Positions 3,356 through 58,270 of a stretch of DNA of 64,000 nt are shown piece by piece. The stretch lies in contig NZ_CP058334.1 in NCBI RefSeq assembly GCF_013391085.1, positions 2,356,001 through 2,420,000 of the forward strand, written 5' to 3'. The notes below the pieces were generated by a model. It was not told the origin of the DNA. It did no database searches and saw only the letters and a list, made by a program, of their open reading frames with translations. The position numbers and the translations under genes were made by a program. Source of the stretch: Natronomonas halophila. Its GTDB lineage: Archaea > Halobacteriota > Halobacteria > Halobacteriales > Haloarculaceae. The stretch's first letter is position 1. Every line of letters starts with the position of its first letter.

Positions 3356-3418
3356 CCGGGTTCGCGGGGTTTGCGGCAGTGGTCGGGGTTTAAGTAATCG
3401 CCGATTAATATTCCAACT

Positions 3419-27306: not shown

Positions 27307-28983
27307 TCAGATACCAGCGCGGTACTCACCGAAGACGTCTCGCAGGGCGTTACAGATCTCGCCGGTGGTCGCGTAGGCCTTCACCGCATCGACGATGTAG
27401 GGCATGACGTTCTCGTCGCCCTCGGCCGCTTCTTTCAGGTCCGCGAGGGCGGCCTCGACGGCCTCGCTGTCGCGGTCCTCGCGGAGTTGCTGGACGCGCT
27501 CGCGCTGCTGGCGCTGTTCTTCCTCGCTGACCTCCTCGATGTCCTCTTTCGGTTCCTCGTCGACCTGATACTCGTTGACGCCGACGATGATGCGCTCGCC
27601 CGACTCGATTTCGCGCTGGCGCTCGAAGGCGACATCCTGAATCTGGCCCTGCACGTACTCGTTTTCGACGGCTTTGCGCATGCCGCCGCGTTCCTCGACC
27701 TCGTCCAGAATCTCGAAGGCCTCTGTTTCGAGTTCGTCGGTCAGCGCCTCGACGTAGTAGGAGCCAGCAAGCGGGTCGATGGTGTCGGCAGCACCGGATT
27801 CGTGGGCCAGAATCTGCTGGGTCCGCAGGGCGGTCCGCACTGACTGTTCGGTCGGCAGCGAGAGCGCTTCGTCCTTGCCGTTGGTATGGAGACTCTGGGT
27901 GCCGCCGAGTACCGCTGCGAGCGCCTGATAGGCCACCCGGACGACGTTGTTCTCGACCTGCTGGGCCGTCAGTGTCGACCCGGCGGTCTGGGTGTGGAAC
28001 TTCAACTGCTTGGAGGCGGGCTTTTCGGCGTCGAACCGCTCGTCCATCATCTTGTACCACATCCGGCGGGCCGCCCGGAACTTCGCGACCTCCTCCAGAA
28101 TGTTGTTGTGGGCGTTGAAGAAGAACGAGAGTTGGGGAGCGAACTCGTCGACGTCGAGGCCGGCATCGAGTGCGGCTTCGACGTATTCGAGGCCGTCCCC
28201 GAGCGTGAAGGCGAGTTCCTGTGCGGCGGTCGCGCCCGCCTCGCGGATGTGATACCCCGAGATGGAGATGGTGTTGAAGTTGGGCACCTCATCGGCGCAA
28301 AACTCGAAGATGTCCGTGATGATGCGCATCGACGGCTCCGGCGGGAAGATGTAGGTGTTGCGTGCGATGTACTCCTTGAGAATGTCGTTCTGGATGGTCC
28401 CCCGCAACTCCTCGCGGTCGACGCCCTGCTTGTCGCCGACGGCAATGTACATCGCTAGCAGGACGGACGCGGGCGCGTTGATGGTCATCGACGTCGAGAC
28501 CTCGTCCAGCGGGATACCGTCGAAGACGGTCTCCATGTCGTCCAGCGAGTCGATGGCGACGCCGGCCTTGCCGACCTCGCCTTCGGCCATCGCGCTGTCG
28601 GAGTCATAGCCCATCTGCGTGGGGAGGTCGAAGGCCATCGAGAGGCCGGTCTGTCCCTCGTCCATGAGGTAGTTGAACCGCTCGTTGGTCTCGCTGGCCG
28701 TGCCCATGCCCGCGTACTGGCGCATCGTCCAGAGGCGGCCGCGGTGCATCGTCGAGTAGACGCCGCGCGTGTAAGGTTCCTCGCCCGGGAAGCCGATGTC
28801 CTCCTCGTAATCAAGGTCGGCGACGTCGGCTGGGGTGTACAGCGGGTCGACCTGCTGGCCGCCGGTATCGGTCGTGAACTCCTCTTTGCGCTCCCCGAAG
28901 CGCTCGACGGTTGGGCCGTAGGTGTCGTCTTTCCAGTCCTCGTGGCCCTCCTGAATGGCTTCGAGGTCGTCGGGGTCGAACAT
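27307..28983 (-). CDS. Methylmalonyl-CoA mutase, large substrate-binding subunit
   Basis: Converts methylmalonyl-CoA to succinyl-CoA with adenosylcobalamin. 558 residues covering only the substrate TIM barrel: [34 protein letters not shown] and [16 protein letters not shown] are typical. The cobalamin-binding DxHxxG domain is not in this gene, so a separate small subunit must be encoded elsewhere. The ATG at 28983 was chosen over a longer non-conserved start. Confidence 0.94.
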
Positions 28984-29061
28984 TGTCGAAGAAAGGGGGC
29001 GGGCGGGGCTTAAGGGTTGGCGAGTCACGCCCCGATATGCGGCTAACCCCTCGATGGTCAG

Positions 29062-29928
29062 CTACAATGAGGGAAGTATGTCAATAAGATCAGATCGGCT
29101 CAGGCGTCCGTCCTTCTCGACACCGCTACCAGTTCCGGTTACTTTCCATCTACCGTTGGCTTTCTGGAGGCCGGGATGCACGTAGGTCTTGTCGACTTCC
29201 CCAATGTAGATGGCCGCGAACGAGTCCTGTGACTCACCGAGGTTTTTCGGTTGAAGTGTGGTGTTTCCGCCGATACCAGAGAGGGTTTGGCTCTCTACTA
29301 GGTAGGGAGTTCGATCGTCTTTGTCCAGTAGCCATGCATCTATCGTCATCGTCGAGACCCCTGATGCGGTGGTGAGTCGAACGTTCCCTGCACCCGTAAA
29401 CCGAAGCGACTGGATGAGGTTATCAGTCGTCTTGGGACATTCGACTCGGATGTCTCGGCTTTCGGTCGTCTCGATCGAGACGCCGGTCCCGGAAACAGCT
29501 ACGTCGAAATATACGGTCGCGGTTTCCGTTTCGAGGCGAACCGACGAACACTCGATATCGACCAGTACATCTCCACTTTCCCCAATATCGAGGATGTCGG
29601 GAACATGACTTAGTTCGGCTTCGACGCCGTCGTCGGTTTCGACATCGATTTCGAACTCGTCGACCGTGAGCGCGACACCGAACTGGTTCAGTAATTCGAC
29701 GAGTCTCTCCTCGTAGTCGGAACGAAGGGTAGTAGGCTCGACATCGTTCGGTGGTTCCTCAACCGCGAAATCCTCGTAGAGAAGACCGAGAAAGGCGTCT
29801 TCATCGCCGACAACATCGACGCTCACGTCCCGCTCGACTTCTGCCGAAGTGAAGCCGTTCGAGCCGATCACCAGACTCCCACTCGCGGTAAATGCTCCCA
29901 TCGAGGCGAGGACGCTTCGTCGTTTCAT
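29062..29928 (-). CDS. Secreted DUF1102-like protein coupled to a membrane regulator (cassette 1)
   Basis: 288 residues. The N-terminus MKRRSVLASMGAFTASGSLV has a twin-arginine-like pair and hydrophobic core, then GFTSAEVERDVSVDVVGDED, which matches the N-terminus of the locus's DUF1102 proteins. The rest is beta-rich with a single conserved CSSV and VECP cysteine pair and no catalytic motif. Its ATG overlaps the stop of the upstream regulator (ATGA). It may be the outside partner or ligand of that regulator, or a minor fibre subunit. It is a divergent relative of the protein at 34333-35028. Confidence 0.75.
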   Translation of the reverse strand: MKRRSVLASMGAFTASGSLVIGSNGFTSAEVERDVSVDVVGDEDAFLGLLYEDFAVEEPPNDVEPTTLRSDYEERLVELLNQFGVALTVDEFEIDVETDDGVEAELSHVPDILDIGESGDVLVDIECSSVRLETETATVYFDVAVSGTGVSIETTESRDIRVECPKTTDNLIQSLRFTGAGNVRLTTASGVSTMTIDAWLLDKDDRTPYLVESQTLSGIGGNTTLQPKNLGESQDSFAAIYIGEVDKTYVHPGLQKANGRWKVTGTGSGVEKDGRLSRSDLIDILPSL

Positions 29929-30515
29929 TCCTCGCTCACCTCGTACTTCTCCGAGCCGATTCGGTTCCGGGCAGCGTCGTAGGTGTGAACCCCGGCCGAT
30001 ACCGCGAACAATACGACGAGAATAACAGCCAATCCAAGTCCCGAAAGTTCGACGAATGGATACACCCCCAACCACACGGCAGCAGCGAGCGCCGCTCCGA
30101 CTGCCGAGAGCCCGAGGTAATACTCGCTCCACGGGATATCGTTGCTCGGAACGAACTCTAAATACATCTGTACTTCGCGCGCGTCCTCGGTCAGTTCCAC
30201 CTCCCCGCGCATGTGTTCGTACTCGATGATGCCTGCCTCTTCGAGCTTCGGCAGGTGGTTCTGGCGGAGGGCAGTGTAGACGCGCTTGCGTTCGCTACTG
30301 TCGATTTCGGCGGTCGATATGTCGTTCTCCCAGGCTGTGACGTGATCGACGAGTTCACGCAGTTCTACGCGCCGCCCATCGTGTTGCTTGAGATAGTGCA
30401 GCGCACAGCGGCGCCGATCGTTACTAAGTACCTCGAAAACCTCGTCGCGCGGTAGCGACGACCTGTTCTCGGAAGGTGCCAACGACTCGGAGATAGATGT
30501 CCCTTTCAGACTCAT
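29925..30515 (-). CDS. Membrane-anchored winged-helix regulator, DUF7344-like (cassette 1)
   Basis: 196 residues. Residues 24-118 are a winged helix of the DUF7344 type: VFEVLSNDRRRCALHYLKQH, ELVDHVTAWE, then YTALRQNHLPKLEEAGIIEY. Two transmembrane helices follow at about 132-153 and 157-177 with a very short outside turn, and a basic tail returns to the cytoplasm. This is a one-component regulator tethered to the membrane. GGGTGGGGAAAC directly precedes the ATG as a ribosome-binding stretch. It diverges from the DUF1102 gene at 30965 and is about 60% like the regulator at 35028 by eye. Confidence 0.85.
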   Translation of the reverse strand: MSLKGTSISESLAPSENRSSLPRDEVFEVLSNDRRRCALHYLKQHDGRRVELRELVDHVTAWENDISTAEIDSSERKRVYTALRQNHLPKLEEAGIIEYEHMRGEVELTEDAREVQMYLEFVPSNDIPWSEYYLGLSAVGAALAAAVWLGVYPFVELSGLGLAVILVVLFAVSAGVHTYDAARNRIGSEKYEVSEE

Positions 30516-30964
30516 GTTTCCCCACCCAAGGGTCGATTGCGTCTGACGTACGTCGCCTTAATTAAACCCTATGGTTGTTTTGTGATATGAGTGGTGGCGT
30601 GATGTCTGAAATGCCGCCGCACTCTGTCGGTTTCTGAGTGTTTGTACTTAATAAGCCGGTAATCTGACGGTTGGATTTTATATATGGGTGAGCAGAGGCT
30701 TGTAACGGGATTTCTCGGTGTCGGAGAGTACGTAAAATCGGCGCTAATGGTTGGTTAAGTGACTTCACGGGCTGTTTCAGCCTGAGGCTGTGTGTGATTC
30801 AGTCCTTTCGTGTCGGTTCGCAGGTCGGGGCTGTGTTCGTTTCTGCCAGTGCATACAGAAGGGGGTTCCACTACTGGGGGTAGGTAAGCGCGGAGCCACT
30901 GACGCCCGGTCGGTCGAGGTGAGGTGTGGGGGCGTGGGGCCGCGCGAAAACAAGGTGAAACAAC
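30516..30964. promoter_or_regulatory. Divergent control region of cassette 1 and the first DUF1102 gene
   Basis: 449 bases without a gene. TTAATTAAAC near 30560 can serve the regulator and TTTTATATATGG near 30680 may serve the plus strand. The last 45 bases (GTGGGGGCGTGGGGCC and then AACAAGGTGAA before the ATG) closely match the leader of the DUF1102 gene at 37881. AAGGTGA is a good Shine-Dalgarno, so this message has a leader. Confidence 0.5.
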
Positions 30965-31735
30965 ATGGAACGACGCAAATTCTTGATCGGTATGGGATCG
31001 CTCGCCGCCGGCTCGGCGGCCGTAATGGGTACTGGTGCCTTTGAGTCAGTTCAGGCTGAACGGGCAGTCAATGTTAATGTTGAGGGCGACGCAGGTGCCT
31101 ACCTTCGGTTAGACGCGAATGATGATTCTGAGTTTGTGAACAATAATAGCCCGCTGTCATTTGATTTCTCACAGTCTCTACAAGGTGGCGGGTCTGGTGT
31201 GAATAACAACGGTACGACGGAATCACGCCCAGGGTTCACGATGGAGAACCAATTTGAGAATACGATGCATATTGAAGCACACAACCCGTTGGCCAACAGT
31301 GACCTAAGTGACGGCGGGGTTGATTTCCAACTTATAGCGGTTCGAGATGCTACCAAAGGTGTCGGCTATGGGTTTAATGGCCGTTTGAACAAAGGAGTGA
31401 TTTTTGATCGGACTGAACCCATTGAAATTGTCGGTGGAAAAACCGATGCAGCTAACCCGGCGACAATCAGCCCCTATCCAGGAGATTCAACGTCTGGAAA
31501 GGGACTCCAAGGAAGCATGTGGTCGGGTAATCCCGGCTCGTATCCCGGAAGTATTGGAAACAACCCGAGGTATATCACTCTTGATCCTGGCCAATCAGTC
31601 GATGTGATTGTCCGTGTGGTTGCCAACAACGCAGATGTAGGCGAAATTGGAGGGGAAGTACAATTTGAAGCATTCGAAAAAGAGAGTAGCACTACGATTA
31701 GTGAAGGATATCAGCCTCCCCAGCCACAGTCCTGA
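30965..31735 (+). CDS. Secreted DUF1102-family protein, candidate fibre subunit
   Basis: 256 residues. MERRKFLIGMGSLAAGSAAV is an RR-motif signal peptide; a signal-peptidase site after SVQA would leave ERAVNVNVEGDAGAYLRLDA, the conserved start of the mature DUF1102 (TasA/camelysin-like) beta-sandwich. The body is Gly/Asn/Ser-rich with no Cys and no enzyme motif, and ends in a short Pro-Gln tail. Codons are much richer in A+T than in the neighbouring sipW gene (runs such as AATGTTAATGTT), which suggests a different origin. sipW follows after 106 bases on the same strand, so it is the obvious substrate. Confidence 0.82.
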   Translation: MERRKFLIGMGSLAAGSAAVMGTGAFESVQAERAVNVNVEGDAGAYLRLDANDDSEFVNNNSPLSFDFSQSLQGGGSGVNNNGTTESRPGFTMENQFENTMHIEAHNPLANSDLSDGGVDFQLIAVRDATKGVGYGFNGRLNKGVIFDRTEPIEIVGGKTDAANPATISPYPGDSTSGKGLQGSMWSGNPGSYPGSIGNNPRYITLDPGQSVDVIVRVVANNADVGEIGGEVQFEAFEKESSTTISEGYQPPQPQS

Positions 31736-31809
31736 ACATTTCAAAGAGGTTCTATTGAATTCGGATAGCACCAAGAGAAACCGTCAGAGTTGTATCCTCC
31801 GGTGAAACG

Positions 31810-31823
31810 TTTTTGTTAATAAC
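31810..31823 (+). promoter_or_regulatory. TATA-like element of the signal peptidase gene
   Basis: TTTTTGTTAATAAC lies 19-32 bases before the GTG start at 31842, the usual distance for a leaderless haloarchaeal message. It implies the peptidase can be transcribed apart from the DUF1102 gene before it. Confidence 0.45.
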
Positions 31824-31841
31824 CGCTGAGACTCACAATAC

Positions 31842-32972
31842 GTGTCGCTTCGACGCTACGCCACCTGGGGGGTGGAGATTCTTCTAATAGTGGTACTTAT
31901 ATCCCTCATTGCGGGCGCCGCCCTCGGCCAGCCGATACTGCTGTCCTTCGTCGAAACGGGGAGCATGGAGCCGACGATGGAACCCGGCGACGGCTTCATC
32001 GCGGTTCCATCGCCGGTCGCCGGCGAAATCGACGAGGGCGACGTCATCGTCTTCGAGGCCCAGAACCTCCACGGCGGCGGGCTGACGACCCACCGCGTCG
32101 TCGGCGAAACCGAATCGGGGTACATCACACGCGGCGACGCCAACCCGTTCACCGACCAGGACGGGCAGGAGCCACCGGTAACGGACGGCCAAATCGTGGC
32201 CGTCGCCTTGCAGGTAAACGGCGACGTCGTCGTCATCCCGGAACTCGGGACGGTGGCCGAGACGATGCGAGGGGTCGTCGAAGGTCTGCAGTTCCGGTTG
32301 GCGCAGGTATTCGGCACCCGGGCGTTCCTCGGGACGCAAGGGTTGGCGCTGTTGCTCTCGGGGATTGGGCTCGCGGTGCTTCTGTTCGGAGCGCTCTTCG
32401 ACGACGAGCGACGGAAACGAGCCGTCAAGCGAAGCCGGAATCGGGAAGGGGTCTATAACCCACGCCGGTTGGTCCTTGCCATGGCGATATTCATCGCGCT
32501 CGTGTCGGGCGGGACGATGGCGGCGATGTCGGACACGCAGGAATACGGCATGGTCAGTGCCTCCTTCGATTCGGAGAACCCGACGACGGTACCGACCGGC
32601 GAGGAGAGCGACCTGACGTATCCCGCGCTCAACGGCGGGCAGTTGCCAGTTTATGCCTTCTATTCGCCGGCCAGCAGCAACGTCGACGTCGAACCGCGGT
32701 CGATGCGGATGAACCGGGGTGAACAGGAGAACGTCACGGTGACGCTTCAGGCGCCGCCGGACACGGGCTATTATCCCCAGTACGTCACGGAACACCGGTA
32801 TTTCGCGGTGCTTCCCTTCGGTCTCGTCGCGTGGCTCTACGGCGTCCATCCGTGGCTGCCGACGATCGCGACCAGCGGAGTCATGGGCGGGGCCTTCCTC
32901 GTCGTGGGGCTGCTGGTGGTCGGTGCCTCGCCAATCCGGACGCGGGAGCGTTCGCGCGGTTCGTGGCTGTAA
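31842..32972 (+). CDS. SipW/ER-type signal peptidase I with extra outside domain
   Basis: 376 residues, GTG start. A first membrane helix (11-30) is followed by the catalytic Ser41 in ETGSMEPTMEPGD, the His84 of TTHRVVGE in place of the bacterial lysine, and ITRGDANPFTDQD. The Ser-His dyad is that of archaeal, ER and Bacillus SipW enzymes. Unusually, two further helices (about 165-186 and 208-228), an outside beta-rich domain (about 235-320) and a last helix (about 345-363) are appended; plain archaeal peptidases stop near residue 170. Bacillus SipW processes TasA, so processing of the locus's DUF1102 proteins is the likely role. Confidence 0.87.
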   Translation: MSLRRYATWGVEILLIVVLISLIAGAALGQPILLSFVETGSMEPTMEPGDGFIAVPSPVAGEIDEGDVIVFEAQNLHGGGLTTHRVVGETESGYITRGDANPFTDQDGQEPPVTDGQIVAVALQVNGDVVVIPELGTVAETMRGVVEGLQFRLAQVFGTRAFLGTQGLALLLSGIGLAVLLFGALFDDERRKRAVKRSRNREGVYNPRRLVLAMAIFIALVSGGTMAAMSDTQEYGMVSASFDSENPTTVPTGEESDLTYPALNGGQLPVYAFYSPASSNVDVEPRSMRMNRGEQENVTVTLQAPPDTGYYPQYVTEHRYFAVLPFGLVAWLYGVHPWLPTIATSGVMGGAFLVVGLLVVGASPIRTRERSRGSWL

Positions 32973-33015
32973 GCGGTGGAAATCCTTTTATTCCCCTGCC
33001 ACAATCAGCCTGATA

Positions 33016-34188
33016 ATGGGACTGTGGGGGGTTCGTGTGAGGGCGTCGCTCGATGAATATTTCGTCGTCGCAGTCGTGGCGCTGCTCGTCTTCGGAGCGA
33101 TGGGTGGCGCGGCTGCCTACACAGCACACCTCGACCCTGGAACCGAAACGCGGACACAGGAGGTCGGCGCCTGGGAGTCGACGGCCGGCTACGACCATCA
33201 GGCGACGGTCACCGAGGCAAACCAGGTGTACCCGATCGGCTACCCGCTCGAAAACCGGAGCGTCTACTACACGAGCATCGCGCCGAAACTCAACGGAACG
33301 TTCCGCTACGGCTTCGCGGGCGGCGGCGAACTCGACGTCGAAGCCGAGACGACGCTCGTGCTCCGGTCGGTCGGCGAGGAGGGCGAAACTTTCTGGGAGG
33401 TGACAGACACTCTCGAAGAGACGTCAACCACCATCGGACCCGACGGGACGGCCACGACGACGTTCTCGCTGAACGTCTCCGAGGTGCGTGCCCGAATCCA
33501 GTCTATCGAGGAGGACCTCGGCGCCTCGCCCGGAGCGACACAGGTCCGGGTCGTCACGAACGTCACCGCGGCGGGGGCGGCCGGCGGTGCCGATGCCAGC
33601 CACGAGACGGGCTACGTGCTGTCGATAGACCCCGGTTCAGATACGTATAGCGTCGAAGGGCCGAGGGGCGAGACCGAACGGCACCCCCACACGGGAACGG
33701 TAACCGTCGAGCGGGAATACGGGCCGCTTCGGAGCCTCGGTGGCCCCGCAGTGCTGGTGTTGTCGCTGCTCGGTCTGGTTGCCCTCGGCATCGCGCGCGA
33801 CCAGGAGATGCTCGCCGTCAGCGAAGCCGAACGCGCCGCGCTGGCCGCCGAGGCCGAACGCGAGGAGTTCGAGGAATGGATTTCGACCGGCCGCGTCCCC
33901 GAGACGGTTCGGTACCGGGATGCGGTGGCTGTCGACTCGCTGGCGGACCTCGTCGACACGGCTATCGATAGCGACCGCCGGGTCGTCCACGACCCCGCGG
34001 ACGACACCTACCACGTCATCGACGACGCGCTCCGATACGAGTACAGCCCCGACCCGCCGGTCGACGTATCGGGGGAATCCACCGACGGGAGCGTCGGGGG
34101 ACCGGAGGACCGGACACAGTCGAACGACGGAGTCGACGCCGAGACCGATTCTCAGCGGGAAGACGAGCCATCCTCCTCCGAAGCATAA
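33016..34188 (+). CDS. DUF5305-like bitopic membrane protein
   Basis: 390 residues. A helix at about 14-34 and a second near 240-256 bracket a 200-residue outside beta-rich domain (EVGAWESTAGYDHQATVTEA, then GYPLENRSVYYTSIAPKLNG). The cytoplasmic tail is a charged coiled-coil-like helix (AERAALAAEAEREEFEEWIS) and a small domain with RVPETVRYRDAVAVDSLADL. It follows sipW by 43 bases with its own CTTTTATT box 24-31 bases upstream. Haloarchaeal DUF5305 genes are commonly beside SipW-type peptidases, so a role in anchoring, chaperoning or secreting the fibre subunits is inferred. Confidence 0.78.
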   Translation: MGLWGVRVRASLDEYFVVAVVALLVFGAMGGAAAYTAHLDPGTETRTQEVGAWESTAGYDHQATVTEANQVYPIGYPLENRSVYYTSIAPKLNGTFRYGFAGGGELDVEAETTLVLRSVGEEGETFWEVTDTLEETSTTIGPDGTATTTFSLNVSEVRARIQSIEEDLGASPGATQVRVVTNVTAAGAAGGADASHETGYVLSIDPGSDTYSVEGPRGETERHPHTGTVTVEREYGPLRSLGGPAVLVLSLLGLVALGIARDQEMLAVSEAERAALAAEAEREEFEEWISTGRVPETVRYRDAVAVDSLADLVDTAIDSDRRVVHDPADDTYHVIDDALRYEYSPDPPVDVSGESTDGSVGGPEDRTQSNDGVDAETDSQREDEPSSSEA

Positions 34189-34332
34189 CCTCGTCGCATC
34201 CACGAGATTGATGCCGATGCCGGATTAGCGGGTTCAGAACCGAGGGCCGCTATCGTCTCGCGAACGGGTCGCTGAGCGAGGAACGGTCAGTGAGTCGATT
34301 CTCCGGACTGCACGATGCTGCTTGGGGCCCTC

Positions 34333-35028
34333 TCAAATCGCTCGGTTTTCTGTCGTACCGGTCACGTTTTCGCTCGCGTCGGCCGCCGGATGTTGGAGTC
34401 CGGGCGGGTCGACAGGTAGCGCTGCTGTATCGATACCGTCACCGCCGGGAGAACACTCGACTGTCGTCTCACGCGATAATTCTCCGGTGGTGTCCGGTTC
34501 AGGCGATTCCACGCCGAGCGCGACTGTAGCCGTCGTCTCCGATGGAGCGCGTATCGCGGCGGTTACGTTCCCATCGCCGGTCCGGGACAGCACGACTGGG
34601 CACTTCACGTCGACGGTCACGTTTCTCTGCTGGCCGATATCGAGCGTATCGGCCGTCCCGGCGAGTTCGATGGCCGGATACCTATCCGCAGTCGTGACTT
34701 CGGACGTGACGGATAACTCGGCCGGGAACCGGTTCGTAACCGTCGCTATCGGCACGCCCTCGTAGACGAACACGACGACTGCGCTGGTACCCGACTCGCT
34801 CGTGGCGATATCGGTGTTCGTCTCGACCCGGTCGACCCCGTCGGCCGGTGTCACCTCGACGCCGTGGACCTGGACGCCCAGAAGTGCCTCGGAATCGTCG
34901 ACGACCGTCACGGTCGCGTTGCGGTCGGCGTCGTTCGCGCTAAACCCGCCGCTGGCGACGACGAGGGTGGCCGCCCCAGTAACTATCAGGAGAGTCACTA
35001 CTCGCCGGAGTGCGATTCGGCGTGTCAT
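34333..35028 (-). CDS. Secreted DUF1102-like protein coupled to a membrane regulator (cassette 2)
   Basis: 231 residues. MTRRIALRRVVTLLIVTGAA is a signal peptide with two RR pairs; the mature start GFSANDADRNATVTVVDDSE aligns with the cassette 1 protein and the DUF1102 family. Shared later features are TLDIGQQRNVTVDVKCP against ILDIGESGDVLVDIECS, and a Cys near the C-terminus (TTVECSPG). The tail is Pro/Asn-rich. Its ATG overlaps the regulator stop by one base (TGATG). It converges with the DUF5305 gene. Confidence 0.72.
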   Translation of the reverse strand: MTRRIALRRVVTLLIVTGAATLVVASGGFSANDADRNATVTVVDDSEALLGVQVHGVEVTPADGVDRVETNTDIATSESGTSAVVVFVYEGVPIATVTNRFPAELSVTSEVTTADRYPAIELAGTADTLDIGQQRNVTVDVKCPVVLSRTGDGNVTAAIRAPSETTATVALGVESPEPDTTGELSRETTVECSPGGDGIDTAALPVDPPGLQHPAADASENVTGTTENRAI

Positions 35029-35636
35029 CACTCCTCCAGTTCGTATTTCCCGGTTCCGAGGCGCTTGACTGCGGCCTGACGCGTGTGTATCGCTGCCGAG
35101 AGACCGAACAGGCCAGCGAGGATGGCGGCGAGTCCGAGCCCGGATAGCCCCCCGAAGGGGTAGACGTTGAGCCACGTCGCGACGACGAGCGCGGCGCCGA
35201 CCGCCGACAGCCCGAGATAATACTCGCTCCACGGGATGTCGCCGCCCGGGACGTACTCCAGATACAACTGCGCTTCTCGGAGGGCATCCGTTAGCTCTAC
35301 GTCCCCGCGGAGGTGGTCGTATTCGATAAGTCCCGCGTCTTCGAGCTTCGGCAGGTGCGTTTGTCGAATCGCCGAATAGACGCTCTTGCGTCTGTCGCTA
35401 TCGAGCCTGTCGATCGACGTATCATCCTCCCAGGCGGCGACGTAGTCGACTATCTCTCGGAGTTCGACCCTGCGTCCTTCACACTTCTTCAGATAGTGGA
35501 CGATACACCGCCGCCGAGCGTTACAGAGCACCTCGAAGACCGCCTCGCGTTCGAGACCGCTGCGTTCGAAACTGTCCCAGGGCTGGTGACCCTCGTTTAT
35601 CGGGAGTACCTCCCCAAACTGACTGCCTCGTTTCAT
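35028..35636 (-). CDS. Membrane-anchored winged-helix regulator, DUF7344-like (cassette 2)
   Basis: 202 residues, same plan as the cassette 1 regulator: winged helix 32-125 (VFEVLCNARRRCIVHYLKKC, YSAIRQTHLPKLEDAGLIEY), the conserved DIPWSEYYLGLSAVGAAL entry into helix 1 (138-160) and helix 2 (165-185). GGGTGGGG precedes the start as in cassette 1. The ATG at 35636 gives good ribosome-site spacing; an in-frame GTG lies 15 bases earlier. It diverges from the VWA-DUF1102 gene, so that gene is the likeliest target. Confidence 0.84.
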   Translation of the reverse strand: MKRGSQFGEVLPINEGHQPWDSFERSGLEREAVFEVLCNARRRCIVHYLKKCEGRRVELREIVDYVAAWEDDTSIDRLDSDRRKSVYSAIRQTHLPKLEDAGLIEYDHLRGDVELTDALREAQLYLEYVPGGDIPWSEYYLGLSAVGAALVVATWLNVYPFGGLSGLGLAAILAGLFGLSAAIHTRQAAVKRLGTGKYELEE

Positions 35637-35992
35637 ACATTCAATCCCCACCCAGGTAGGTAATCTCTCACAACTCCGGATAAATCAGTTTCGTCCGTTC
35701 ACGAGATTATAATAAAGGGGCGGATATAGCCGGTTCCTCCTCCCTATCTAAAACACACTATGACGGCGAGTAACGTCCGATTACTCATAGTGAGGTTCGA
35801 TTTCCGGTCGAACTGCGCTGCCACAACACCGGGTTTGCGCTGATAACGGTCGCATACCCGTTCTCAACGGCTCGGTTCGAGGGAGAAACGCTCCGGTGGG
35901 ATTCGGTGGGGCGGCAAATACCAACGTGGGTCCTCCACGACCATCCCATGAGCGTGCTCCACGGAGCGTGCGCACGCGAACGAGGCTATACC
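35637..35992. promoter_or_regulatory. Divergent control region of cassette 2 and the VWA-DUF1102 gene
   Basis: 356 bases. GATTATAATAAAGG near 35705 is a TATA-like element. An imperfect inverted repeat has CACTATG (35756) and GAGTAA (35768) against TTACTCATAGTG (35781-35792). AATACCAACGTGGGT at 35917-35931 recurs with one change upstream of 37881. GAACGAGG about 10 bases before the ATG can act as a ribosome-binding site. Confidence 0.5.
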
Positions 35993-37528
35993 ATGGAACG
36001 ACGCAAATTCCTACTCGGCGTGGGGGGTGCCTCTCTCGGTACCGGCGCACTGGTCGGTTCGGGCGCGTTCTCGGCGATGCGGGCCGAACGCACCGTCTCG
36101 ATCGACGTTGTCGAGGACCCCGGCGCCCTCGTTGGACTGGATAGCTGTCCCGGCTCGGATAACGCGATGTATTCGGGAGTCAACGAAAACGGCCAGCTGT
36201 ATATCGACATCTCCGAGGAACCGAACGAAGGGGATGGCGTCAACGGCGATTCGCGCTACTGGTTCCACGACACCTTCCAGGTCTGCAACCAGAGCGACCA
36301 CAGCATCTGCCTGTGGGTGGTCGAACACGAGGGCTGGCCCGAGACCAGCGACGGAAACCCACGAGTGGATTTCTACCTCGGGGACAATCCCGACGAGTCG
36401 ATTCTCGGCGCCGCGAACGCCCACGAACTCGGCTCGGGTGAGTGTACGTGTGTCGGTATTTACACGAACACGCTCGGACTCACGTCGGCGGACGTCGACA
36501 CGCTGCTTGAGAATCTCGACGACGAGATTTCGATTCGTGCGAATGCCGAGTGTCCTGATGTGGAAGATGAGCCCGGTCAGAGTGGGCCGGAGTGTCAACC
36601 CTGTCAGGTCTCGGAGAGCGACGGCACCGAGGACTTCCTGACAATCGAGAACCTCGATGCTGGGAACTTCCCTGAGATTACCGCGACGGCGCGGGTCGAG
36701 ACGGATGATGGTGGAGACGGTGACTTGACTGCGAACGATTTCGAGGTGTGTGAAACGTTCGGCGGCGACAACTTCGGACAAGACTCGACGGTGGCGTTCG
36801 CAGGCGAAGACGAAAGCGCTGAAGCGGATGTGATGATTGTCCTGGATACGTCCTCGTCGATGACGTTCGAGTCCGGAAAGTTCCAGAACGCCAAGGACGG
36901 GGCAAAGACACTCGTCGATACCTTAGGTCCGGGCGTCAACGTCGGTCTGGTTGAGTTCGAAAGTTCCGCGACGTTGGTAACTGGTTTGACATCCGATCAC
37001 GGAAGCGTCAAAACGGCCATCGGAACGCTTACTGCCGTTGGTGGAACCGACGTCGGATCCGGTATCGACAGAGCGCAGACCGAACTTGACAATAACGGTC
37101 GTGATGTCCCGAGATACATGGTTGTGTTGGGTAACGGTGACACCAGCGGTGGTGAAATCCCGGCGAACAACGCGAAGAACGAGGGTACGACCATCTACGG
37201 AATAGCATACGGGACGGGGGCATCCTTGAGCGCGTTCGAGTATATCGTCGGTGAAGTTCCGACTGGCCGAGATCCCCAAGATTCGGTCCCGGATCTAGAC
37301 GAAGACCGATCGGATCCTGATTGGGAAGATTACGCATACGATGCGGGTACAGACGACATCGCCAGTATCTTCGAGGACATTGGTGAGATAATCTCCGGGA
37401 CCTACTCGATCACGTACACCACCTGCAATCCCGATACCGACGGGTCGATGCGCGACGTGCTGGTGCACGTCGATGACCCCGAAGGCGTTTCGACGGCGAC
37501 CGAATCGTACACAGCACCGTCGTCCTGA
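35993..37528 (+). CDS. Secreted DUF1102 protein fused to a von Willebrand factor A domain
   Basis: 511 residues. MERRKFLLGVGGASLGTGAL is the RR signal; AERTVSIDVVEDPGALVGLD starts a DUF1102 domain that runs to about 185, with Cys pairs in HSICLWVV and GECTCVG. A Cys-rich linker (188-204) and a beta-rich stretch follow. Residues about 278-470 are a VWA domain: MIDAS DxSxS at Asp285-Ser289 (VLDTSSSM), Thr352 in GGTDVGSG, and VVLGNGDTSG where most VWA domains have LTDG, so the third metal aspartate is Asn381 or shifted to Asp383. A short beta domain ends the protein. An adhesive or tip subunit is plausible. Confidence 0.85.
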   Translation: MERRKFLLGVGGASLGTGALVGSGAFSAMRAERTVSIDVVEDPGALVGLDSCPGSDNAMYSGVNENGQLYIDISEEPNEGDGVNGDSRYWFHDTFQVCNQSDHSICLWVVEHEGWPETSDGNPRVDFYLGDNPDESILGAANAHELGSGECTCVGIYTNTLGLTSADVDTLLENLDDEISIRANAECPDVEDEPGQSGPECQPCQVSESDGTEDFLTIENLDAGNFPEITATARVETDDGGDGDLTANDFEVCETFGGDNFGQDSTVAFAGEDESAEADVMIVLDTSSSMTFESGKFQNAKDGAKTLVDTLGPGVNVGLVEFESSATLVTGLTSDHGSVKTAIGTLTAVGGTDVGSGIDRAQTELDNNGRDVPRYMVVLGNGDTSGGEIPANNAKNEGTTIYGIAYGTGASLSAFEYIVGEVPTGRDPQDSVPDLDEDRSDPDWEDYAYDAGTDDIASIFEDIGEIISGTYSITYTTCNPDTDGSMRDVLVHVDDPEGVSTATESYTAPSS

Positions 37529-37880
37529 CGCGACCCTCTTTTTCGGCCCCGTGTGTCGAGCGGATGTCGAGCCAGCCCCCGTCGACCGAGCTGCCGATAC
37601 TGCCTATTGAGTGAGATGGCCCGTAGTCGTCCGGTGAAACCAGACATTACCGTAGGAGTGAGCAGGGTCTTCGTGCGATTATAGGTCCGAGCGCCGATTC
37701 AACGACTGCTTTCTCGACTGAATTCAGCCGTTTCGGAACGGCATTGAACGGTTGCGAATAGTCTGCTAGCTAATACCAACGTAGGTATGGGTGTATGGTG
37801 TTTCCAAGCGCTCCCCGATGGCGCGGTCGGCGTTGTGGTGTCCGTGTGGGCGGGTGGGCGCGGAACAAGGTGAACGAAAT
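37529..37880. promoter_or_regulatory. Spacer and leader before the third DUF1102 gene
   Basis: 352 bases without a gene. CTCTTTTTCGG at 37536-37545 is a T-run terminator for the VWA gene. AATACCAACGTAGGT at 37772-37786 forms an imperfect palindrome (TACC-AACGTA-GGTA) and repeats the motif at 35917. The last 45 bases, ending GGAACAAGGTGAACG, match the leader of the 30965 gene. Confidence 0.5.
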
Positions 37881-38642
37881 ATGGATCGACGAAAATTCCT
37901 GATCGCGGCAGGCAGTACAGCAGTCGGAACCAGCGCGCTCGTCGGCTCGGGTGCATTCAGTTCTGCACAGATTCGAAATCGTGAGGCAAACGTGGCGGTC
38001 AGTGCCGACGACGCTGCACTCATCCAGTTGCTTCCCGGCTGGCATCAAGACGTCGCCGGTAACAACTCAACCGTCTCGAAAAGTCGGGTCGGCTACGAGG
38101 ATGGCCAACTCTACATCAGCTTCAAAGCGGATAACCAGAGCGGCAACGGCGTGAACGCCAACTCCACTTACCAAGTCGGGGCGCTCGGTCAAGACGACGC
38201 CGAAGACGGCCTTGACAATCAGGGCATCGCTGGTGTCAGTTCCGACGACGCCCTCTACGGCAGCGCTGCGCCCGGCCCTTCGGACAACGAAATCGAGGAC
38301 GACCCGGCGTTCGCGCTCTGCAACGAGAGCGACGAGACCTACGAGTTCGAACTCACCTACGATGCGGATTCGGCACCAACCGATTCACCCGATGTTGACA
38401 GCGAAGACGCGGCGGCCGTGCTCGTCGGTAGCGCCGACGACACGTGGGGTGCCGCCTTCGCGATGGATATGACGGATAATGCAGGCCGTGTGAGCACGGA
38501 ACTTGCCCCCGGTGAGTGCCTCTACGTCTCGCTGATTATCAACGTCGGCGACGTCGACTCGACAGACACGCCCGACTGGGAAGGATCGCTGGTCGTCAAC
38601 GCTGGCGAGAACCCGCCGTCCGGGAACAACATCGACAACTGA
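37881..38642 (+). CDS. Secreted DUF1102-family protein
   Basis: 253 residues. MDRRKFLIAAGSTAVGTSAL signal with RR motif, then GAFSSAQIRNREANVAVSAD, the family's junction into the mature beta domain. The mature protein is acidic with Asn/Gly/Ser-rich loops (DNQSGNGVNANSTYQVG) and the family's late motif APGECLYVSLIINVGDVD. Two cysteines only. No catalytic motif. AAGGTGA 8 bases before the ATG is the ribosome-binding site. Expected to be exported and processed like the other locus members. Confidence 0.82.
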   Translation: MDRRKFLIAAGSTAVGTSALVGSGAFSSAQIRNREANVAVSADDAALIQLLPGWHQDVAGNNSTVSKSRVGYEDGQLYISFKADNQSGNGVNANSTYQVGALGQDDAEDGLDNQGIAGVSSDDALYGSAAPGPSDNEIEDDPAFALCNESDETYEFELTYDADSAPTDSPDVDSEDAAAVLVGSADDTWGAAFAMDMTDNAGRVSTELAPGECLYVSLIINVGDVDSTDTPDWEGSLVVNAGENPPSGNNIDN

Positions 38643-38729
38643 AACGGGCCGACAGCAGCCGCTTTAGTCGGTCCTTCGGCCCTCCAGCGTGAGTCCGCTG
38701 GTGGTCGTCAAAGCACCGACAACACAACT

Positions 38730-39866
38730 ATGAAACGAAGAACCATACTCGTCGGCCTCGGAAGCGCGTCCGTAGGTGCGAGTACCCTCGTCGGTTCGGG
38801 TGCGTTCAGCGCGGCCAACGTCCGACGGGACACCAGCATCGATGTCGTCCCCGATTCGGATGCGCTAGTCGGACTGGGGCCGTGTACGGGCCCGCAGGGC
38901 CAACCAACCTCGAACGGGGTCTACGTCGTCGAGGAGAACGGACAGTTCGCACTCCAGATAAGCGACGCTAACGACGCCTTCGACGGCGACGGCGTAAACG
39001 TAGAATCGATTTACTGGTTCGACAGCGTCTTCGAAATCTGCAACCAGAGTGGCCATCCGGTCTGTGTCGATTTCCAGATCGACGTCCCGCCGGTTCCCGG
39101 GCCGGTCCCGAACGAATACGACTTCGAGGCGGGCGACGACGCCGTCGTCTTCTACGAGGGCGACGACCGTAGCGCCGTCATCGACGTCTCCGAATCCAAT
39201 CCTCGGGAATCGGGGTTCTCCCTCGTTCCCGGCGAGTGCCTCTGTGTCGGCTTCGTCGTCCGTGCGTTCGGTTTCGACGCCGGCACCGATATCTTCCGGA
39301 ACGCGACGTTGACAATCAACGCGTTCGCGGGAGACGAGTGCGGCACCGAGGGACCGGGTAATGGCGACGACGGCGACGGCGAGGATGAGGGAGACGGGGA
39401 CGAACCTGATGAAAAGGAGGACTTCGAGGACCTCAAAGCCATCAGTTTCGTCGCGTTCTGTACGGGCGATGATACCGTCCCCGATATCGAACGCGTTGAC
39501 GTGAAAAACACGAAGGATAACGGCGAACCCGTCGAAATCGAGTGGGAATCGAACGACCCCGTCGAGGAAGTCGTCCTGTTCGGCGGCCAAGAATGGTACC
39601 TGTTCGACGTCGGCAGCGCGACGCAGGGAACGGCCCTCATGTCGGCCGACGGTAGCAGGTTCGGTACCGGTCGCGTCGCCGACGACTTTGCCGCAGGCGA
39701 TGGGCCAAGCGATATTACGTTCGATACCGACGGAAGCGACCACGTCCGGTGTCAGTCCTCTCCCTGCTACGGTGAGAAAGGGTACAAAGTCGAGGAAAGC
39801 GGCGGCAGCTTCGACGTCGACGACGGTGAGACGACGAACGAGACGTGCAACCAAGCCCCGACCTGA
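38730..39866 (+). CDS. Two-domain secreted DUF1102-family protein
   Basis: 378 residues. MKRRTILVGLGSASVGASTL signal, then GAFSAANVRRDTSIDVVPDS and a DUF1102 domain to about 205, with FEICNQSGHPVCVDF and VPGECLCVGFVVRAFGFDAG closely matching the VWA protein's first domain. An Asp/Glu/Gly linker (about 206-235) leads to a second beta-rich domain of about 140 residues with four cysteines, of unknown fold. The gene follows the previous one by 87 bases with no clear terminator, so the two may be co-transcribed. Confidence 0.82.
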   Translation: MKRRTILVGLGSASVGASTLVGSGAFSAANVRRDTSIDVVPDSDALVGLGPCTGPQGQPTSNGVYVVEENGQFALQISDANDAFDGDGVNVESIYWFDSVFEICNQSGHPVCVDFQIDVPPVPGPVPNEYDFEAGDDAVVFYEGDDRSAVIDVSESNPRESGFSLVPGECLCVGFVVRAFGFDAGTDIFRNATLTINAFAGDECGTEGPGNGDDGDGEDEGDGDEPDEKEDFEDLKAISFVAFCTGDDTVPDIERVDVKNTKDNGEPVEIEWESNDPVEEVVLFGGQEWYLFDVGSATQGTALMSADGSRFGTGRVADDFAAGDGPSDITFDTDGSDHVRCQSSPCYGEKGYKVEESGGSFDVDDGETTNETCNQAPT

Positions 39867-39908: not shown

Positions 39909-40496
39909 CTAGCTCCCGGTGTCGTACTTATAGGTCGCTTCCTCGGAGTCGATACCGAAGTCCTCTGGGGATTCCTCGGGTTCGGTTTCTTCGGCTGGCT
40001 CGGCTTCCGCGGCTGCCTTGAACCGCTCGCGGAACCGGTCGGGCATCTCGAAACTGTCGGTGTCGATGCGCATGGGGACGGCCTCGGGGTCCAGCGACTC
40101 GCGTTTGGCTTCGAGGCGGTCCTGCAGTTGTTCGGGGAGGTCATCCGCCGAGACGCCCTCGAAGCCGAACTGCGCGAGGTACTCGTGTTCGCTCGTCAGC
40201 GAGTAGACGTGGTCGAACCCCTCCGCTTCGGCGCTGTCGACGAGGCGTTCGATGACGTGGGCGCCGACGCCCTGTCCGCGCCAGCCGTCGAGGACGCCGA
40301 TACTGGTGAGTTCGCAAACCTCGTTGTCGTCGTCCTTGTGGACGCGTATCCGGCCGAACCCGGCGCGGGCGTTCGACTCCTCGTCGACGGCGATGACGTA
40401 ATCCCGCGACCGAAAGGACGTCTCGTCCAGGCCCATCGACTCGATGTGGTCCAACAGCCAGGCCTCGTCACGATTGCGTGCGTCCCGGACGTACAT
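39909..40496 (-). CDS. GNAT-family N-acetyltransferase
   Basis: 195 residues beginning MYVRDARNRDEAWLLDHIES. The acetyl-CoA-binding motif is ELTSIGVLDGWRGQGVGAHV, with the expected R/Q-x-x-G-x-G/A loop, and HVYSLTSEHEYLAQFGFE gives the later strand and helix. An acidic Pro/Glu tail of about 40 residues follows the fold. Substrate unknown. The ATG at 40496 excludes a non-conserved upstream extension. Confidence 0.85.
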   Translation of the reverse strand: MYVRDARNRDEAWLLDHIESMGLDETSFRSRDYVIAVDEESNARAGFGRIRVHKDDDNEVCELTSIGVLDGWRGQGVGAHVIERLVDSAEAEGFDHVYSLTSEHEYLAQFGFEGVSADDLPEQLQDRLEAKRESLDPEAVPMRIDTDSFEMPDRFRERFKAAAEAEPAEETEPEESPEDFGIDSEEATYKYDTGS

Positions 40497-40615
40497 ATCC
40501 CGGCCTACGAGTGGGGAACGCAAAACGGTTCCCCCGACGTGTAAAAACGCTAAACACATTTCCTGTTTGCGAACGTAAGAAAACTACTTGCCGGCGGGTG
40601 CGAACACATGACACC

Positions 40616-42616
40616 ATGGAGTCTCTCGAGGAGTTCGACGAGGTGGTTTACGAACCCGACGAGGAATTCGTCGAATCCACGAACGTCAAGGCGTTCATGG
40701 AGGCGTACGGTATCGACGACTACGAGGAATTAATCGAGCGGACGACTACGGATATCGACGGCGTCGAGGCCTCCGGCGTCGACTGGTTCTGGGACGAATT
40801 GCCCGACTACCTCGGCATCGAGTGGTACGATGACTACGACGAGGTCCGAGACGACAGCGACGGCCCGCAGTTCACCGACTGGTATCCCGGCGGCGAACTC
40901 AACATCGCTCACAACACCGTCGACCGCCACGCTGCGCGCGATTCGGGGACCCGAAACAAGGTCGCCTGCCTGTGGGAAGGCGAGGACGGCGAGGTCCGGA
41001 ACTTCACCTATCACGAACTCGCCCGCACGTCGAATCAGGTCGCCAACTACCTCGAATCGGTCGGCGTCGAACAGGGCGATACGGTCGCCCTCTACATGCC
41101 GATGGTGCCGGAGGTCATCTCGATTCTCTACGGCTGTTTCAAGGTCGGCGCCATCGCTGTCCCCATCTTCTCCGGGTTCGGCGTCGAGGCGACGGCGACC
41201 CGCATCGAGGACCCCGAAGCGGACGTCCTCTTTACCGCGGACGGATTCTATCGGCGCGGGTCGGAGGTGACGCTGAAGGACACCGCCGACGACGCCATCC
41301 AAGAAGCCGACCACGACGTGACCGACGTGGTCGTCTACCGGCGCTTCGAGGACTCTGACCCGCCGTTGACTGAGGGTCGGGACGCCTACTGGGCCGACAC
41401 CGTCGCCGAGCAGGCCGACGACTACGAGACGACGGAACTGGACTCCTCGGACGAGTCGATGCTGCTGTACTCGTCGGGGACAACGGGCAAGCCGAAAGGC
41501 ATCGTCCACACCCACGCCGGCGGGCAACTGCAGGCGGCCAAGGAGGTGTATTTCGGCTTCGACCTCAAGCCGTCGGACCGCTTTTTCTGGGTGTCGGACA
41601 TCGGTTGGATGATGGGGCCGTGGACGCTCATTGGCACCCACACCTTCGGCGGGACGATGGTGATGTACGAGGGCGCGCCGGACCACCCCAATCCGGACCG
41701 CTTCTGGGAGATGATCGACCGCCACGACATCACCCAGTTCGGCATCTCGCCGACCGCCATCCGCGCGCTCCGCAAGCAGGGCGACGAATGGGTCGAGGGC
41801 CACGACCTCTCCAGTCTCCGCCTTTTGGGATCGACGGGCGAACCGTGGGACCCCGAATCCTGGATGTGGTTCTACGAGGAGGTCGGTGGCGGCGACACGC
41901 CCATTATCAACATCTCCGGCGGCACCGAAATCATGGGCTGTTTCCTGATGCCGATGCCCATCCAGTCGCTGAAGCCGTGTACGCTCGGTGGCCCCGGCCT
42001 CGGGATGGACATCGACATCGTCGACGAGACGGGCGAGTCTATCAAGGAGGACAACGAACGCGGCTATCTGGTCGCCCGCGACTCCTGTCCGTCGATGACC
42101 AAATCGCTGTGGCAGGGCGACGACCGCTATCTCCACGAGTACTGGTCGTCCTTCGAGGACCCGCCGATGTGGGACCACGGCGACTGGGCCCAGAAGGACG
42201 AGGACGGCTTCTGGTACCTCCACGGCCGCGCCGACGACGCCCTGAACGTCGCCGGCCGCAAAGTGGGACCGGCCGAAATCGAGGGCGCACTCATCGAACA
42301 CGAGGCGGTCAATCAGGCCGCCGCCGTCGGCGTTCCCGACGATACGACGGGGACGGCCGTCGTCACTTACGTCGTGCTGGAATCCGGATACGAGGAAACC
42401 GACGAACTGCGCGAGGAGTTGCGCGAGAAGGTCGGCGAGGAACACGGCAAGCCGTTCAAACCCCGTGAACTGCTGTTCGTCGACGAGTTCCCCAAAACGC
42501 AGTCGGGCAAAATCATCCGTCGGGCCATCGAGGCCACCTACACCGGCGAGGAACTGGGCGATATGTCCTCCATCGAGAACCCCGGCGCCCTCGACGAAAT
42601 CGAGAACGCGCGATAG
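40616..42616 (+). CDS. Acetyl-CoA synthetase-like acyl-CoA ligase (AMP-forming)
   Basis: 666 residues. The ATP loop is LLYSSGTTGKPKGIVHTHAG, followed by WVSDIGWMMGPW, GISPTAIRALRK, the hinge YLHGRADDALNVAGRKVGPA and the catalytic C-terminal lysine in KTQSGKIIRRAIEATYTG. This is the acetate/propionate-CoA ligase group. The nearby methylmalonyl genes make propionate possible; acetate is the default. The ATG at 40616 starts MESLEEFDEVVYEPDEEF. Confidence 0.92.
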   Translation: MESLEEFDEVVYEPDEEFVESTNVKAFMEAYGIDDYEELIERTTTDIDGVEASGVDWFWDELPDYLGIEWYDDYDEVRDDSDGPQFTDWYPGGELNIAHNTVDRHAARDSGTRNKVACLWEGEDGEVRNFTYHELARTSNQVANYLESVGVEQGDTVALYMPMVPEVISILYGCFKVGAIAVPIFSGFGVEATATRIEDPEADVLFTADGFYRRGSEVTLKDTADDAIQEADHDVTDVVVYRRFEDSDPPLTEGRDAYWADTVAEQADDYETTELDSSDESMLLYSSGTTGKPKGIVHTHAGGQLQAAKEVYFGFDLKPSDRFFWVSDIGWMMGPWTLIGTHTFGGTMVMYEGAPDHPNPDRFWEMIDRHDITQFGISPTAIRALRKQGDEWVEGHDLSSLRLLGSTGEPWDPESWMWFYEEVGGGDTPIINISGGTEIMGCFLMPMPIQSLKPCTLGGPGLGMDIDIVDETGESIKEDNERGYLVARDSCPSMTKSLWQGDDRYLHEYWSSFEDPPMWDHGDWAQKDEDGFWYLHGRADDALNVAGRKVGPAEIEGALIEHEAVNQAAAVGVPDDTTGTAVVTYVVLESGYEETDELREELREKVGEEHGKPFKPRELLFVDEFPKTQSGKIIRRAIEATYTGEELGDMSSIENPGALDEIENAR

Positions 42617-56900: not shown

Positions 56901-57155
56901 ATGCTCGAACTTTATCAGGCCGAAGACTGCCCGTACTGCCAGAAAGTACGCGAGAAACTGATGGAGTTGGGCGTCTCCTATGTCAACCACAACCCGCGGA
57001 CCGCCGAAAACGACGTCCGGAACCAGCAGGTCCTCGAGGAGATGGTGGCTCTCGGCGGCAAGGACCAGGTGCCGTTCCTCGTCGACAATCAGCGCGGCGC
57101 CCAAATCTACGAGAGCGACGATATCGTCGAGTACCTCGAAGAACACTACGGGTGA
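56901..57155 (+). CDS. Glutaredoxin-like protein
   Basis: 84 residues, one thioredoxin fold: LYQAEDCPYCQKVREKLMEL has the redox CPYC, and KDQVPFLVDNQ carries the cis-proline, with YESDDIVEYLEEHYG at the end. This is the glutaredoxin/GST N-domain type. It reduces disulfides or mixed thiol adducts in the cytoplasm (haloarchaea use gamma-glutamylcysteine). Confidence 0.9.
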   Translation: MLELYQAEDCPYCQKVREKLMELGVSYVNHNPRTAENDVRNQQVLEEMVALGGKDQVPFLVDNQRGAQIYESDDIVEYLEEHYG

Positions 57156-57426
57156 GGCGTCGAAGCGGTAGGGTCGTACAGAAGGCTCTTTTGAAATCCT
57201 CAACAAATGATAGGTAATAGGCTTCGTACTGTATACAGGGCGCGTATCTCGCAAGCAGCTTTGACCAATTCGATTCGGTCGATATAGATGACCCACATAC
57301 CGACATAGGATGCAAACCTATCGACGTGGTGTCAGAGATTATGTCCGAGATACAGAGGGTGTGTTAGCAATGTCATCCTGCCAATTTTATTGGTGCAGGA
57401 GTGGTCTGGTTTTGGGACGCGTTGAG
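57156..57426. repeat. AT-richer spacer with sequences repeated near the other membrane-protein genes
   Basis: No gene seen. GATTCGGTCGATATAGATGAC (57272-57292) is nearly repeated at 58200-58220, and CGAGATACAGAGGGTGT (57346-57362) at 59133-59149 as CGAGATACAGAGCGCGT. All lie just 3' of the three membrane-protein genes, which supports their origin by duplication. Confidence 0.6.
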
Positions 57427-58053
57427 TCACTCTATCGGTGTGTCTGTCACTTGTTCCGTTGTTGTCGTTGCCGTTGACCGTGAGCGAAGGACGTACCAGA
57501 CCGCAAGGAAAGCGATGGCGTTCACGCTTTCACCGACCGCCCCCCGTATGTTCGTGGAGAACGTCCCTGAACCGAGTAACACGAACAGGATTGCAACAGA
57601 GGCGACCAGCATCAGACCACCAACAACCGTGGGGAATGCATCGGTTCGGAGTCCTGCGATGCCGAAGAGGATGAACGAAAGGAGAGTAAATACAACTGTA
57701 CCGGCCCCGAAAACCGCGATAAGTGGTGTGGTAACACCGAGATTTTGCAGTATCGATGTGGCTATCAACCCCACAGCAAAAACCATCGCCCCGCTGAGAA
57801 GGACACGGCTCAGTTTTCCTATCCGGGGATGGAGTTCTATCAAGCCAACGGAGAGGCCGGCTAATCCGAGGAGGACGGCCAAGCGACCAACGATGACAGT
57901 CGGGTATATCCAGTCAAAAAAGGTGACACTTTCTACCAGATACGCGGCCCCATGGTTGAGTGCAAAGATGAGTTCAAGGACGAAGCCAACGAAAAACAGC
58001 GTCGGACTCCACGCCTCAAGCGCTTTCCAATATTGCTTGCTAATGATTGACAT
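57427..58053 (-). CDS. Multi-pass membrane protein, paralogue 1 of 3
   Basis: 208 residues from MSIISKQYWKALEAWSPTLF. Six to seven hydrophobic helices, for example FFVGFVLELIFALNHGAAYL, ILFGIAGLRTDAFPTVVGGL and an adjacent TM segment, ending in a Thr-rich tail. No functional motif. The start aligns with the other two (S(I/V)SKxxWxxLE). TATTTTTATACG-type TATA sequence lies just upstream. Unknown function. Confidence 0.72.
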   Translation of the reverse strand: MSIISKQYWKALEAWSPTLFFVGFVLELIFALNHGAAYLVESVTFFDWIYPTVIVGRLAVLLGLAGLSVGLIELHPRIGKLSRVLLSGAMVFAVGLIATSILQNLGVTTPLIAVFGAGTVVFTLLSFILFGIAGLRTDAFPTVVGGLMLVASVAILFVLLGSGTFSTNIRGAVGESVNAIAFLAVWYVLRSRSTATTTTEQVTDTPIE

Positions 58054-58270
58054 AGGAGGGGAGATACAGCGATAATACGTATAAAAATTTCTTAACAATA
58101 ATTATGTTTAATAGGAGAGACCTAATTGTTGAGTCGGCCAATACCCAAACACGTCTCACGGCTGGTTCCGCCTCGCAACGCTGGAACTATCTCAGACCAG
58201 ATTCGGTCGGTGTAGAGGACGTTTCTATCAGAGACGGCATAAACCGGTTCCTCATCCCATGAACGTACCA

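Follow-up and report, generated by a model that had tools for sequence, protein, structure and literature searches.

What do the ten genes at positions 29062-39866 of this stretch of the Natronomonas halophila genome build? They occupy 10.8 kb of the window (the whole 64,000-nucleotide stretch that was analysed) in a 3.2-Mb genome, and an earlier note, made from the sequence alone, had read them as encoding an extracellular fibre of processed subunits related to TasA and to the bundling pili of Pyrobaculum. Follow-up analysis makes it very likely that this is a divergent Taf/Tafi-type fimbria locus, producing a fibre of donor-strand-type subunits. The fibre is thus of a known kind, a variant of a solved archaeal fimbria and not a new machine. 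Taf-family profiles, a match to the solved pilus, the predicted fold of subunit C and the linkage of the subunits with a signal peptidase and a DUF5305 protein across haloarchaea (genes A to J, Table 1) all support the proposed fibre. The suggested relatives need revision: the fold is indeed similar to that of the Pyrobaculum pili, but the nearest relative is the Tafi pilus of Natrinema.

A fold search named this pilus as PDB entry 9P0A, from Natrinema sp. J7-2; what is used here of that entry is its title, sequence and residue counts. C, H and J also match the 9P0A chain in sequence (C by phmmer at 2.5e-10), and a mature-only profile of H-type domains recovers it with an E-value of 4.7e-10. 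Predicting the structure of mature C was a check proposed beforehand, and donor-strand pili came out as its top PDB matches. The model, built like the others on alignments from the window and related loci only, is a beta-sandwich whose first ~17 residues lie outside the strands, and Foldseek ranks 9P0A first and the Pyrobaculum bundling pili second. The fold alignment with 9P0A covers 134 residues (VIA Z 9.1, root-mean-square deviation 4.2, 19% identity) and is followed by several ties, including the Pyrobaculum bundling pili 7UEG (Z 7.7) and a Sulfolobus filament, 7PNB (Z 7.1). The model of H shows a beta domain with its first 20 residues loose, plus a vWA domain. A loose N-terminal stretch, in C and likewise in H, is expected because a donor strand has no partner in a monomer. 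Likeness of C to MSP/PapD-like domains (Z 6-8) was judged to be that of beta-sandwiches in general. The fold matches of C, led by donor-strand pili, do not include TasA, and this absence is not counted against a TasA-like fold.

The genes that accompany the subunits point the same way. In a related haloarchaeal locus (L070), a pilin that hardly differs from 9P0A (E 5e-117) is followed by a membrane protein of 398 amino acids, a D homologue and a DUF5305 gene; upstream lie a winged helix-turn-helix (wHTH) gene and a coupled 366-residue surface protein with many GGD-type repeats (2377-3477, minus strand). Canonical taf loci, in which TafA scores above its cutoff, hold DUF5305, TafF, TafE, TafA, wHTH, TafC and peptidase genes in one stretch, with a 4-nt overlap between tafC and the wHTH gene, which is of the B type. 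Taf families score above cutoff in a sister genus and a few others. The window locus has a wHTH gene overlapping a TafC-like gene, a SipW-type peptidase with an extra domain and a DUF5305 gene, so that its parts list nearly equals the canonical set in a different order; TafF alone found no match among the window proteins (NCBIfam).

Six of the ten proteins (A, C, F, H, I and J) begin with arginine-arginine (RR) signal sequences. As the earlier note had seen, four of them (C, H, I and J) share a G(T/S)GAF junction followed by a short R-containing segment, and the two shorter relatives with the same start are A and F, with the junction variants NGF and GGF. The NCBIfam families TafA, TafC and TafE match all six, A and F best to TafC and the other four to TafE. 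The genome contains six TafE-profile matches, every one within this locus, and the clustering is therefore not chance. The name DUF1102 proteins, also proposed, holds for H (24.2 bits) and J (28.9 bits), which exceed the Pfam gathering threshold of 22.2, but not for A, C, F and I, which fall below it.

That these are linked paralogues had likewise been claimed. Since signal sequences can inflate matches, mature chains were used alone; significant pairwise similarity is then found between H and J (4e-19) and, more weakly, between A and F (7e-5). Pairwise proof of paralogy fails for C and I and was replaced by mature-only profiles, built from the chains of other species without signals and without rows from the window. 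These recover all six subunits (H 2e-54, J 8e-47, I 4e-13, C 9e-12, A 1e-5 and F 7e-4) and none of 1,200 shuffled decoys, which makes the family relation real; the claim thus stands for all six at profile level, although not pairwise. Judged by these profiles, C, I, A and F are distant members of the subunit family. A search of genome contigs with C as query gave no match, whereas an alignment of H-type domains did. None of the six subunits matches camelysin (Pfam) or the TIGR04088 signal, and C, H, I and J lack an evident C-terminal anchor. A set of cysteines (SC/PC, VCNQ...C, GECxC) occurs in the pilin domains of H (36065-36520) and J (38802-39340) and is absent from C; these could form disulfides.

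An RR motif in a signal sequence points to export by the twin-arginine translocation (Tat) pathway, which is most likely the route taken by the six proteins. The site of cleavage can be estimated from 9P0A, which has 215 residues in its sequence and 188 in its structure, with numbering that runs to 215. Provided that the model has no gaps, it starts at F28; the cut (written here as a slash) would then fall at GTGA/FSSVEADR, and the SSVEADR segment would be kept. By the same rule the sites in the window are probably GTGA/FESVQAER in C, GSGA/FSAMRAER in H, GSGA/FSSAQIR in I and GSGA/FSAANVRR in J. Cleavage after SVQA, as first suggested, is probably wrong, given the GxGA/F site that the 9P0A residue count indicates.

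The predicted SipW/ER-type signal peptidase is present as D, with a TIGR02228 score of 61 bits against a cutoff of 51.85 and a Pfam S26 match, and so is the DUF5305 membrane protein, E. D misses the cutoff of the Bacillus SipW equivalog NF046067 (30.6 of 190 bits). Across 50 homologues, the catalytic residues S41, H84 and D99/D105 of D show 98-100% conservation, and many positions in its C-terminal half are conserved to the same degree. This half is a domain flanked by hydrophobic segments, for which Pfam gives weak immunoglobulin (Ig)-like matches. Homologues of D occur in 31 of the 40 related genomes, mostly at full length. Among 38 D-type neighbourhoods, a DUF5305 gene is found in 34, mostly within ~100 bp, RR subunits in 31 within ~10 kb, and a DUF7344 gene in 28. 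The N. halophila genome itself has two DUF5305 genes above cutoff and only two D-type fusions, each DUF5305 gene adjoining one fusion. The second pair belongs to a small locus (L039 7724-10827; ~2099723-2102826) that also holds an RR subunit and a short TafC-like protein and lies behind a PAS/GAF-type regulator. Residues 211-235 of D (window 32472-32546) form a hydrophobic segment like a SipW-type substrate signal, a marginal match that is the only TIGR04088 match of the genome. This match raised the possibility that D combines a peptidase with a TasA-like subunit held in the membrane, which is not supported: compared by profile with the pilin alignment, its C-terminal domain scored a probability of 0.2%, and it has only the weak Ig-like matches in Pfam.

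Once SipW has processed the subunits of a TasA fibre, each fills the sandwich of its successor with its N-terminal strand; the accessory protein TapA carries a similar donor segment (PMC9674648). By analogy, we infer that the window subunits donate the conserved FxxxxAxRxVxVxVxxDxxAxL segment as their strand. An assembly mechanism is proposed where the exported RR proteins are cut at GxGA/F by D, acting as a dedicated peptidase, and the freed segment would leave its own domain and fill in the beta-sandwich of the neighbour that follows, so that a fibre forms with C as the likely shaft subunit. E and the extra extracellular domain of D may have a role at the membrane in capture, polymerisation or anchoring; our guess from gene linkage is that they capture or polymerise processed subunits. 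A and F would each be translated together with a membrane winged-helix regulator (B and G, respectively), a coupling that probably ties the state of the fibre to transcription. H is proposed to be an end subunit in which a pilin domain carries a vWA head with a metal-ion-dependent adhesion site (MIDAS) for metal-dependent binding, and J would be a two-domain subunit similar to H.

Analysis of H also corrects the earlier description of linked paralogues with no enzyme motif, which overlooked this vWA domain and the two membrane wHTH genes, B and G. The elements DTSSS, GGTD and NGDTS of the MIDAS motif (DxSxS...T...D) can be read in the H sequence, and the domain is supported by a Pfam match and by fold (Z 16-19). 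Among many vWA structures, that part of H matches Mfa5, a type V pilus tip protein (6TNJ), with a Z of 18.6. Since vWA matches fill the list for H, its fold results bear on the vWA part. A vWA head is also found on H-type proteins of N. gomsonensis and of further genomes, two Halorubrum species among them, and other H-type (RR/DUF1102) N-termini carry Laminin G/ConA-like lectin, right-handed beta-helix or SNase/LTD-like domains (loci L117, L118, L123, L124, L125, L145 and L155). In L127 (700-2511), from a genome of another family, the vWA part of H recurs with 55% identity over residues 187-510, but there it follows an N-terminus whose signal is of the SipW/CalY type and scores above the TIGR04088 cutoff. 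A head exchanged between two pilin-type N-termini agrees with H being an adhesin or an end subunit, without proving it. We give a position of H at the fibre end about an even chance.

Several results weigh against the fimbria interpretation. The model of C is modest, with a predicted local distance difference test (pLDDT) score of 60 and residues 108-176 unresolved, and that of H reaches a pLDDT of 67; Z values of 7-8 from such models are weak when taken alone. The fold evidence for C counts because the ranking and the sequence match agree, not because of Z alone. All equivalog cutoffs are missed (best scores 41 of 190 bits for TafA, 50 of 410 for TafC and 74 of 155 for TafE), and the proteins are therefore filed as a variant, not as TafA, TafC and TafE equivalogs. 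C and I show no pairwise similarity to other subunits once the signal is removed.

These points leave some room for other readings. The locus could specify a non-fibrous surface coat or matrix of individually displayed adhesins, with the DUF1102 and vWA proteins acting singly and D merely a second signal peptidase; the extra C-terminal parts of H and J, the relatives with lectin-like, beta-helix or nuclease-like domains and the scant pairwise likeness of mature C and I would suit such a coat. We consider it improbable, as the relative of known structure forms a pilus, the same genes adjoin a close homologue of that pilin, small single-domain subunits stand beside two-domain ones in most loci, and C, H, I and J would have to be displayed without an evident C-terminal anchor. 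A type IV-like pilus or archaellum-related appendage would be a familiar structure in haloarchaea, and the subunits of the window have a hydrophobic N-terminal segment. Here, however, the signals are of the RR type and their hydrophobic core leads into the GxGAF junction, the modelled subunit domains are beta, and the ten genes include no secretion ATPase or platform protein (Pfam, NCBIfam), although a PilB/PilC-type pair would be needed; an appendage of this sort is accordingly given almost no weight. Within the fimbria reading itself, H could instead be a minor shaft subunit, placed along the fibre with its vWA heads projecting sideways. Its complete N-terminal donor-type segment and pilin-like domain mean that the sequence allows internal insertion, but the entry title of Mfa5, with its von Willebrand factor (vWF) domain, describes a pilus tip protein, an analogy that favours the end, and bulky two-domain subunits near small ones suit capping. 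Placement of H in the shaft is thus a real possibility, if a somewhat doubtful one.

Comparison of the locus across Natronomonas indicated which parts are constant. In four Natronomonas genomes the locus adjoins the same acetyl-CoA synthetase and GNAT genes, and also the mutase gene where the stretch reaches that far. Identity among these genomes is 87-88% for B (three other genomes), 80% for D, 47-50% for E and 37-41% for A. Close counterparts of H, I, J and F occur only in the window and in N. gomsonensis (I 94%, J 78%, H 62%, F 45%), where the region is orthologous and keeps the order F/G-H-I-J; C has no close counterpart, but one relative at 40% identity in one genome. The leader and signal DNA of C is nevertheless 81-87% identical in other Natronomonas (blastn), and the mature chain is not conserved. 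From these sequences, it looks like the mature subunit has been replaced behind conserved leaders. A leader related to that of C also precedes I. A wider hypothesis, which we hold to be evenly balanced, is that the haloarchaeal fimbria serves as a modular carrier of adhesins: the core for export, processing and assembly would be conserved and stay at a fixed chromosomal site, exchangeable subunits would bring different heads (vWA, lectin-like, beta-helix and others), and mature chains would be swapped behind conserved leaders and signals, the vWA head having moved onto a SipW/CalY-type N-terminus elsewhere.

The features of the locus are collected in Table 1; six genes lie on the plus strand, and the pairs B-A and G-F on the minus strand. 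A scan for bacterial-type promoters and terminators gave a result not above chance, as expected because the host is an archaeon. Elsewhere in the window, positions 57001-61000 have a G+C content of 0.48-0.56 against ~0.65 and are possibly foreign.

Table 1. Features of the putative fimbria locus and its flanks, in window coordinates.
Feature	Description	Positions	Strand	Support and remarks
Flank	Presumably methylmalonyl-CoA mutase	27307-29028		Named by reading the sequence
A	RR-signal subunit, TafC-related, 288 amino acids	29062-29928	-	NCBIfam TafC 7e-10, below equivalog cutoff; ATG overlaps B stop by 4 nt
B	Winged-helix regulator (DUF7344); two hydrophobic (transmembrane) segments at the C-terminal end	29925-30515	-	Pfam PF24035 1e-30
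Leader of C	Leader and signal-sequence region of C, 260 bp	30732-30991	+	blastn
C	RR-signal pilin subunit, likely the major fibre subunit	30965-31735	+	Mature chain predicted to start at F26
D	Signal peptidase of the SipW/ER type, joined to an extracellular domain (weakly Ig-like) that is anchored in the membrane	31842-32972	+	TIGR02228
E	DUF5305 membrane protein, probably for assembly or anchoring	33016-34188	+	Pfam E 1e-57
F	TafC-like RR-signal subunit, 231 amino acids	34333-35028	-	NCBIfam TafC 2e-13, below cutoff; start overlaps G stop by 1 nt
G	Second winged-helix regulator of the DUF7344 family, likewise with two hydrophobic segments	35028-35651	-	Pfam 5e-26
H	TafE/DUF1102-type pilin domain (~26-200), vWA with MIDAS (~278-475) and short C-terminal beta part	35993-37528	+	TafE 2e-20, VWA 1e-17
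I	RR-signal pilin-like subunit, 253 amino acids	37881-38642	+	TafE 2.5e-7
J	DUF1102-type pilin domain and separate C-terminal part, 378 amino acids	38730-39866	+	DUF1102 1.5e-6
Flank	Presumably GNAT protein and acetyl-CoA synthetase	39909-42616		Named by reading the sequences

Set beside known systems, the locus shares with the Tafi pilus a homologous subunit, the junction and a similar fold, and the near-identical relative of that pilin has peptidase and DUF5305 neighbours; it differs in its low identity (that of the fold alignment) and in adding a vWA subunit, another two-domain subunit and two regulator/TafC pairs. With the NCBIfam Taf loci it has in common pilins, TafE-type subunits, the wHTH-TafC pair, the SipW-type peptidase and DUF5305, although it stays below the equivalog cutoffs, has no TafF match and follows another gene order. 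The Bacillus TasA-TapA-SipW system likewise has a SipW-type peptidase adjoining its substrates, an N-terminal donor-type segment and accessory subunits with the same segment, whereas the window has RR (Tat-type) signals, an extra peptidase domain, and DUF5305 and wHTH genes, with no sequence match to TasA or camelysin. Pyrobaculum 7UEG and the Sulfolobus thread filament 7PNB resemble the predicted beta-sandwich; no sequence match to them was found, and the fold match lies near the level common to beta-sandwiches. Mfa5 shares with H a vWA domain on a pilus subunit. The Mfa5 pilus is that of Porphyromonas, and its pilin domain and assembly route differ from those of the window.

Beyond earlier knowledge, the locus adds a subunit with a vWA head, an exchange of both heads and subunits, and doubled regulator/TafC pairs. 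RR/DUF1102 proteins, the fused SipW-type peptidase, DUF5305 and the DUF7344 regulators form a widespread haloarchaeal set of mostly unknown families, and since this set is now tied to a solved archaeal pilus, these families gain a testable role. We propose that archaeal pili may carry adhesins whose heads are vWA or lectin-like domains, much as bacterial pili carry tip adhesins. Fast-changing subunits beside a partly constant machinery would be as expected for surfaces that face viruses or partner cells.

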